The notes below the pieces were generated by a model. The model searched no databases. It had not been told where the DNA came from and worked only from the letters and a program-made list of their open reading frames with translations. Shown here one piece after another: positions 6,157 to 57,799 of a stretch of DNA of 64,000 nt. The position numbers were made by a program, and so were the translations under genes. The stretch comes from an uncultured Bacteroidota bacterium (GTDB lineage: Bacteria > Bacteroidota > Bacteroidia > JABEUT01), in assembly GCA_903863935.1 (NCBI GenBank), contig CAIPDV010000080.1, forward strand, positions 124,001 to 188,000, read 5' to 3'. Positions within the stretch are counted from its first letter, which is position 1, and each line of letters opens with the position of its first letter.

Positions 6157-6165
6157 TGGTGTAGT

Positions 6166-6262
6166 TGACAGTGGTCAGTAGTCAGTTGTCAGATATGGCT
6201 TACTATTTACCATTAATAACTACCAAATAACTTCCGGTAACTGACTACTGATGACTGACTAC
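6166..6262. repeat. GTCAGT-type tract in inverted orientation
   Basis: GTCAGTAGTCAGTTGTCAG around 6176-6191 is matched by the inverted AACTGACTACTGATGACTGAC around 6239-6260, so the two arms can pair around a loop of about 45 bases. Similar tracts occur at 62250-62287 and, inside a coding gene, at 60577-60603. Confidence 0.6.
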
Positions 6263-6267
6263 TTTCT

Positions 6268-56622: not shown

Positions 56623-56737
56623 GTATGTTAATTTTGTTGCGTCCAAATATAAAAATTAATTTACAATGCAGGGTTTATCAATAGTATTTGAAGTTCAAGT
56701 TCACAATATGTTCTACTAACAATATGAGGAGAAATGA

Positions 56738-57205
56738 TTACCATATACCTTTTTTAGCAAGCACTTTGTTATTTTGTAAATCATCCAATAGATGCACTAG
56801 GACTTCCTTCCATCCCCATTGGGAATAAAGCCTTAATAAAAAATCACCCTTATACTCTATCTCCAGGTAGTTACCTGACCCGCCATTTGATACACCCCGC
56901 TTGAAAATAAATTTTTCCACTTTGTCGGTTATATCATTTTCTACACCCCTGCCGGTAAAAACAATATGAACAACACTATCCTTTATTTCAAATAAAGTAA
57001 TGTAATAGGCATTACGCTTATCAATAATATACCATAAGTAAGCATAACTAAGGCAGGAAATACCAAGCACCATTTGCCATGGGCCTTTCATCAAATAGAC
57101 AAACAATATCCCCACACCCATAAATATGGAACATCCCAGGGTAACGTACAATATCCGCTGCCAGTATGTTTTCTTCTCCTCTACTTCTATTTTAATATTC
57201 TTCAT
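56738..57205 (-). CDS. small membrane protein of unknown function
   Basis: A 155-residue protein with two TM helices (about 19-37 and 44-60) followed by a soluble PH-like beta domain (YYITLFEIKDSVVHIVFTGRG, NYLEIEYKGDFLLRLYSQWGWKE). The layout of a two-helix hairpin plus a cytosolic beta domain recalls bacterial PH-domain membrane proteins, but no family is assigned. It lies upstream of the POT transporter on the same strand, 115 bases away, probably transcribed separately. Confidence 0.7.
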   Translation of the reverse strand: MKNIKIEVEEKKTYWQRILYVTLGCSIFMGVGILFVYLMKGPWQMVLGISCLSYAYLWYIIDKRNAYYITLFEIKDSVVHIVFTGRGVENDITDKVEKFIFKRGVSNGGSGNYLEIEYKGDFLLRLYSQWGWKEVLVHLLDDLQNNKVLAKKGIW

Positions 57206-57293
57206 TGGGTATGTACATCCAAATATAAAAATTAATTTACTTTTGAAGGGGAATCTGATTTTTAATTTTTGTTATGGTTTTGAAATTAACAAA

Positions 57294-57335
57294 TACCAAC
57301 CACGGAGATACGGAGAACACAAAGATCCACAGAGA
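57294..57335 (+). repeat. left 42-bp inverted repeat of the GxxExxY unit
   Basis: Left arm TACCAACCACGGAGATACGG... to 57335. Its reverse complement matches 57746-57787 at 37 of 42 positions. It ends on the A of the GxxExxY start codon. Confidence 0.9.
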
Positions 57336-57745
57336 TGATAACTCAAAAAAGCATAAATGAAATTTCGTATACGATTATCGGTTGTGCTATTGAGGTACAT
57401 AAACACCTTGGCCCTGGATTATTGGAATCGGTTTATGAATCGTGTTTGATTGATGAAATGAGAATTTCAGGATTGAATGTAAAATCCCAAATACATGTTC
57501 CAGTCCTATACAAAGGAAAAGACTTGGGTGGAACCTTAAAACTTGATATTCTAGTCAATGATTTGGTTATTGTTGAAGAGAAAGCTGTAGAACAAATGAT
57601 TCCACTTTTCAGGGCACAATTACTTTCTTATTTGAAACTTACTGGAAAACCTAAAGGTTTACTTATTAACTTTCATTGTGAAAATATTAAAGAGCATTTA
57701 GTATCGCTGGTTACAGATGAGTTTGCAAAATTGCCGAAAGTTTAG
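57335..57745 (+). CDS. GxxExxY protein, PD-(D/E)XK nuclease-like
   Basis: A 136-residue protein of the GxxExxY family (TIGR04256): IGCAIEVHKHLGPGLLESVYESCL holds the naming motif G-LLE-SVY. LKLDILVNDLVIVEEKAVE resembles a PD-(D/E)XK nuclease core (Asp, then E-x-K). RAQLLSYLKLTGKPKGLLINF is the family's C-terminal block. The biological role is unknown. The gene is packed exactly between two 42-bp inverted repeats, with the ATG at the end of the left arm and the stop codon just before the right arm, so it may be the cargo or the mover of a small mobile unit. Confidence 0.93.
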   Translation: MITQKSINEISYTIIGCAIEVHKHLGPGLLESVYESCLIDEMRISGLNVKSQIHVPVLYKGKDLGGTLKLDILVNDLVIVEEKAVEQMIPLFRAQLLSYLKLTGKPKGLLINFHCENIKEHLVSLVTDEFAKLPKV

Positions 57746-57787
57746 TCTCCGTGAAACTTTGTGTTCTCCGTGTCTCCGTGGTTAGTA
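57746..57787 (-). repeat. right 42-bp inverted repeat of the GxxExxY unit
   Basis: Right arm, beginning directly after the TAG stop. Read in reverse it gives TACTAACCACGGAGACACGG..., matching the left arm with 5 differences. The unit 57294-57787 spans 494 bases. I see no clear target-site duplication. Confidence 0.9.
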
Positions 57788-57799
57788 TTATAAATTCAT

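Follow-up and report, generated by a model that had tools for sequence, protein, structure and literature searches.

The question raised by this locus is whether a small gene of the GxxExxY family, which two papers of the open-access literature searched mention without treating its function, and the inverted repeats packed tightly around it form a single unit able to move. In the 64-kb stretch of DNA analysed here (the window), the gene occupies positions 57335..57745 on the plus strand and encodes, from ATG to TAG, a protein of 136 aa. It is preceded by a left arm (57292..57335, plus strand) that starts with ACCAC, contains four CACNNAG-like heptads separated by spacers of 1, 2, and 3 bases, and has the A of the start codon as its last base, and it is followed by a right arm (57746..57789, minus strand), the reverse complement of the left one, which begins right behind the stop codon. 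A preliminary description of this DNA had reported arms matching at 37 of 42 positions (57294-57335 and 57746-57787) and packed exactly against the gene (left arm ending at 57335 on the A of ATG, right arm starting at 57746 after TAG); both features were confirmed, the match becoming 39/44 once the arms are extended to 57292-57335 and 57746-57789. This inverted repeat is not a product of chance: it scores 31.5, whereas the best of 2000 shuffles reaches 13.5, and it is by far the strongest inverted pair with a spacing of up to 1.5 kb across the window. The arm pattern CCACNNAGNCACNNAGNNCACNNAG has two matches in the window with at most three mismatches (0.16 expected), both at the unit. The whole unit measures ~500 bp, carries a single ORF, and is located at an intergenic site outside rRNA, flanked by protein genes, the left one on the minus strand and the right one on the plus strand.

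The window protein matches the profiles TIGR04256 (GxxExxY; 135.3 bits, cut-off 35) and PF13366 (PDDEXK_3; 129.4 bits, cut-off 22), and its active-site residues comprise E31 and Y34 in the GxxExxY helix, D71, E81-x-K83, and Q95xxxY99. The codons of the GxxExxY motif (E31..Y34, 57425..57436, plus strand) are invariant among 86 armed elements, E31 and Y34 being found in 86/86; in the PD-(D/E)XK catalytic motif (D71..E81-x-K83, 57545..57583, plus strand), D71 is conserved in 86/86 and E81 and K83 in 85/86. An AlphaFold2 model built on an alignment of more diverse relatives reached a pLDDT of 94.5 and a pTM of 0.88 (a model from a narrow alignment, with a pLDDT of 50, was discarded). The nearest solved folds retrieved with Foldseek are SSO0001, a Cas4, and lambda exonuclease, with weak E-values (best 0.0055), and the profile also matches SSO0001 weakly (E 0.037); the QxxxY motif (Q95, Y99) fits the RecB family. 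The window protein is thus confidently predicted to be a RecB/Cas4/lambda-exonuclease-like PD-(D/E)XK nuclease, in agreement with the nuclease-like protein of the preliminary description, since the modelled fold is that of a nuclease and the D..ExK active site (D71, E81, and K83) is intact. As estimated from codon comparisons (median dN/dS ~0.07 over 25 pairs, with high synonymous change in many of them), GxxExxY is under strong purifying selection.

Looking for arms at other GxxExxY genes, a check that had been proposed at the outset, we found them to be frequent. Counting inverted repeats with a score of at least 14 as arms, 55% of the 132 GxxExxY genes examined are surrounded by them, whereas among 214 neighbouring ORFs the proportion is 0.9%; the 132 genes came from the host genome, relatives, and public genome contigs, the contigs having been selected by similarity to the window protein and the relatives by profile. 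Arms are also present at 70% of 40 further copies picked within one large genus, and in 30-45% of GxxExxY genes no arms could be detected. Conversely, a 400-kb scan independent of the gene retrieved, as single-ORF units flanked by inverted repeats, four GxxExxY units and one RAYT. Arm similarity follows that of the proteins: with syntenic pairs set aside, the Mantel r is 0.56 and the null reaches at most 0.14. The gene is widespread, being found in 41/60 relatives and in 93/98 species of one genus. Armed copies lie between co-directional genes in plasmid records of Bacteroides finegoldii and Bernardetia, and a Sphingomonas GxxExxY gene located between fabD and fabG retains, as judged by eye, the left arm alone. 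Separately, ~28 species of one genus possess an armless GxxExxY gene (L201, L208, and ~26 more loci) at a fixed position downstream of a CutC-like gene, which we regard as a vertically inherited, possibly domesticated copy.

The window arms are quasi-periodic, consisting of four heptads rather than of a simple unique sequence. Their template, ACCACNNAG-N-CACNNAG-NN-CACNNAG-NNN-CACNNAG-A, corresponds to four degenerate heptads spaced 8, 9, and 10 bases. At forty GxxExxY loci, both sides conform to this template and the last heptad mostly lies at 15 bases or less from the start or stop codon; among 40 arm-anchored copies the extension of the inverted repeat outward past the heptads is weak and chiefly limited to the first 7 bases. 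Other GxxExxY genes keep the inverted plan with different heptads (CACTAAG, CACAGAT, CGCAAAG, TACGAA, and CACATAG). No known RNA family matched the unit, and the arm strings are absent from the open-access literature searched. One GxxExxY gene with ACAGGAT arms (L021, in G011:C2) lies between apparent cas4 and cas1 genes and is followed by several tandem copies of a full heptad palindrome.

Two elements (L039 and L045) share 87% identity over 514 bp within unrelated flanks, in MAGs labelled Deltaproteobacteria and Porphyromonadaceae, where mis-binning of contigs is possible; for elements in unrelated contexts, similarity ends at the arms or just outside them. For the window locus, the OPT gene was found in seven congeners, and in four of them it adjoins the MFS gene with no unit in between; because these four likewise lack the neighbouring 155-aa ORF in that interval, the insertion point is not base-precise. 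In another genus, a single site between mutase-like and methyltransferase-like genes (named by eye) is empty in five species, with 7-20 bases between the two genes, occupied in several species by GxxExxY with CACAGAT arms, occupied in two species by a different GxxExxY subfamily with GCCACGAAT arms, and marked by single-arm remnants in further species. Two of the ‘empty’ sites (L266 and L267) may represent losses, since a few arm-like bases persist there. The sequences show that arms accompany the gene at unrelated sites and in different phyla, and that relatives differ in whether a given site contains the unit. We considered phages and plasmids as carriers and rejected them: there were no matches in 50,697 phage records, two viral contigs matched, and 8 of 72,556 plasmids did so. 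A DNA search found no copy in E. coli.

In two genomes, the ends of such elements can be recognised. The gene-less heptad units of G036 end in GTTACTACTCA...TGAGTAGTAAC, measure 146-148 bp, and in several cases have 8-bp duplications; one GxxExxY unit of this genome (L356) carries these ends too, together with the perfect duplication AAAATTGC. Overall, the gene-less MITEs that share ends and heptads with such units are 146-149 bp long, and perfect 8-bp duplications surround many of them. In G017, three loci (L128, L134, and L136) combine GTTACTRYTCA-like ends with perfect 8-bp duplications, and a fourth one (L016) has a duplication matching at 7/8 positions. GTTACTRYTCA is abundant in both genomes compared with a reversed control (80 vs 9 in G036, 138 vs 7 in G017) and is not enriched in the host genome of the window (4 vs 7 in the control). 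Overall, terminal inverted repeats (TIR) with an 8-bp duplication were detected in 16 of 201 loci, versus two and zero with re-paired flanks, in a test for which five settings of duplication length and mismatch were tried and L356 was included once its ends were already known. Without mismatch, the figures are six loci versus zero. GTTACT-type ends are found in only five of the sixteen passing loci, and some of the other ends fall inside arms; among the 40 arm-anchored copies, duplications placed directly at the arms are not in excess. At the window copy, neither a terminal repeat nor a target duplication could be convincingly recognised. At the sequence level, the evidence from TIR plus duplication therefore holds for G036 and G017 and not for the window copy, which has no visible ends and seems to be an older member or one inserted by another route. 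The terminal repeats and 8-bp duplications of these two genomes suggest a transposase acting in trans. No transposase bearing GTTACTRYTCA ends was found, and two candidate partners were rejected: IS66, represented by one sub-threshold fragment in two genomes and by nothing over the cut-off, and RAYT, with seven Y1 genes in the host, the six readable ones having ordinary REP-type hairpins and no heptads. The same two genomes, G017 and G036, also contain large MITE families (L364-L381) that end in GTTACTRYTCA and have perfect 8-bp duplications; heptad palindromes lie inside many of them, and CCCTCTCC palindromes take their place in some.

Arms also exist without the gene. Our searches of the host genome yielded 17 arm-pattern matches, two at the window unit and the others as single arms or short palindromes, and gene-less arms at about ten other places, several directly behind stop codons. 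The coupling of arms and gene proposed in the preliminary description thus stands insofar as other GxxExxY genes do have arms, and is loosened by these gene-less arms. Among the 60 relatives, GxxExxY is present in 12/13 genomes with exact arm matches and in 29/47 without (Fisher p 0.045), a weak link at the genome level. In addition, of 25 four-helix-bundle genes (TIGR02436), 80% have arms, built of different heptads. Because gene-less arms are many and four-helix-bundle genes share the same plan, arms are not unique to the GxxExxY nuclease. In L167-L196, the TIGR02436 genes lie between inverted tandem heptads (GTATTGA, GCTAAGA, GTTTCAG, and AATTAGG) resembling the heptanucleotide repeats reported in Beggiatoaceae, cyanobacteria, and some Bacteroidetes (PMC4679880).

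Orientation is strongly biased: between co-directional neighbours, 65 units are in sense and two in antisense, and the armed four-helix-bundle genes in this context are in sense in 16/16 cases. The window copy, whose neighbours are not co-directional, is an exception in this respect. The free-standing four-helix-bundle genes of the studied genomes thus have heptad arms and a sense bias, like GxxExxY units, which suggests a common way of life. When folded as RNA, the unit forms a structure in which the paired arms enclose the entire ORF (z = -8.6). In the CACTAAG class, arms within one element pair no better than arms between elements (p 0.38), which suggests that the heptad sequence, and not just the stem, matters; in the CACGGAG class, within-element pairing is better kept (p 0.0002).

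The best explanation for these observations, to which we assign a probability of roughly 0.6, is a minimal single-gene mobile DNA unit of ~500 bp made of heptad arms around one PD-(D/E)XK nuclease ORF. It is probably moved in trans by a putative transposase, and on the most economical reading it is MITE-like, with the nuclease gene as a resident, and is mobilised in trans in two genomes or more; the arm-gene-arm package behaves as a mobile gene of one of the smallest types. A DDE-type transposase would act in trans on the GTTACTRYTCA ends to move the unit in G036 and G017, and the nuclease may recognise or cut the heptad arms of its own unit when these form cruciforms or hairpins, an action that could aid the spread of the unit or retain the copy at its site. 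The gene would depend on the host operon for its transcription, because there is no promoter room between arm and start codon, and this reliance would account for the sense-orientation bias. Of the functional mobile or self-copying unit suggested in the preliminary description, we retain one recurring, moving unit of arms and gene, in view of their association, their boundaries, and the ends seen elsewhere, but not self-copying. A bolder version, in which the PD-(D/E)XK nuclease alone, acting on hairpin or cruciform arms, would excise and insert an element of less than 600 bp, with 8-bp target duplications, and also mobilise the gene-less heptad MITEs, seems very unlikely to us; if true, such nuclease-driven movement would define a transposon class without DDE, HUH, or site-specific-recombinase transposase.

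Three other readings compete with that of a mobile unit. GxxExxY might be a simple passenger, captured as cargo between two arms and unconnected with the arms or the movement, the heptad palindromes being parts of transposase-driven MITEs. Gene-less MITEs with identical TIR and heptads do outnumber gene-bearing units, the arms of four-helix-bundle genes (80% of 25) indicate that arms are not nuclease-specific, and an 8-bp duplication beside TIR is the signature of ends processed by a DDE transposase; we nevertheless consider this unlikely, given that one gene family fills most of the units flanked by inverted repeats, that most GxxExxY units have arms without TIR, and that arm type tracks GxxExxY subfamily at non-syntenic loci (though common descent of the unit would produce the same pattern). 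We hold to be just as tentative an RNA-level scenario, in which the arms would pair in the transcript and RNase III would excise the ORF hairpin, the unit being tolerated in operons as are the intervening sequences (IVS) of 23S rRNA, elements with a four-helix-bundle ORF and terminal inverted repeats that are cut by RNase III (PMC4990558). The arm-closed RNA fold, the strict sense orientation of both gene families (65 vs 2 and 16 vs 0), and the fact that the four-helix-bundle family is the ORF of those elements are consistent with it, whereas movement with target duplication occurs at the DNA level, the need for host transcription would equally generate the sense bias, and better pairing within elements is kept in the CACGGAG class only. 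This scenario and the mobile unit are not exclusive. Finally, lone arms right behind stop codons in the host genome and the conserved armless copy in many species of one genus could be taken as signs of an ordinary host gene beside REP-like intergenic repeats serving as terminators or mRNA stabilisers. We find this extremely doubtful in view of the 55% versus 0.9% arm association, the presence, absence, and replacement at one site, the similarity that stops at the arms, and the ordinary REP hairpins, instead of heptads, of the host RAYT genes.

The mobile unit that we favour shares features with several known systems, although we found no description of such an arm-gene-arm unit in the open-access literature searched. 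As in REP/REPIN sequences and their RAYT (TnpA-REP, a Y1 transposase; PMC3116915, PMC2817692, PMC3733652), a small gene lies between inverted palindromic repeats that have many gene-less intergenic copies, but the only ORF of the window unit is a PDDEXK_3 protein, not a Y1/HUH transposase, and its arms are heptad repeats. With the IVS of 23S rRNA (S23/four-helix-bundle ORF, TIGR02436) it has in common a single small ORF inside a hairpin that terminal inverted repeats close, but its ORF is unrelated, its heptads are different, and it is located outside rRNA. MITEs such as BrickBuilt of Porphyromonas gingivalis, which has IS5-like ends, an internal minisatellite with a 23-nt repeat, and no gene (PMC4596501), also combine terminal inverted repeats and internal repeats without a transposase, as do the gene-less copies described here with TIR and 8-bp duplications; GxxExxY units differ by the conserved nuclease gene inside. 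Compared with the PD-(D/E)XK nucleases of the Cas4, lambda exonuclease, and RecB families, with which it shares the predicted fold and the D..ExK and QxxxY motifs, GxxExxY is about half as large as the solved relatives and forms its own arm-bounded unit, and the structural relationship is weak (E 0.0055). The window unit also differs from an autonomous insertion sequence in having no DDE, HUH, or serine/tyrosine transposase ORF. GxxExxY, a common annotated family in this bacterial class without known role, can in this way be recast as a testable mobile unit on the basis of its heptad arms, its presence or absence at fixed sites, and the TIR-plus-duplication MITEs of some genomes, and becomes linked with the equally unexplained four-helix-bundle/IVS genes of shared plan.

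Two other repeats of the window deserve mention. A gene-less inverted pair of GTAGTCA-type heptads, the type found in four-helix-bundle arms, lies at 6163-6263, its members 51 nt apart, beside a GCAATA-periodic repeat common to other intergenic places of the host genome. Close to the GxxExxY unit, an exact 23-nt direct repeat, TCCAAATATAAAAATTAATTTAC (56642-56664 and 57218-57240), lies on either side of the 155-aa ORF (56738-57205, minus strand) and may reflect a second insertion or a duplicated promoter.
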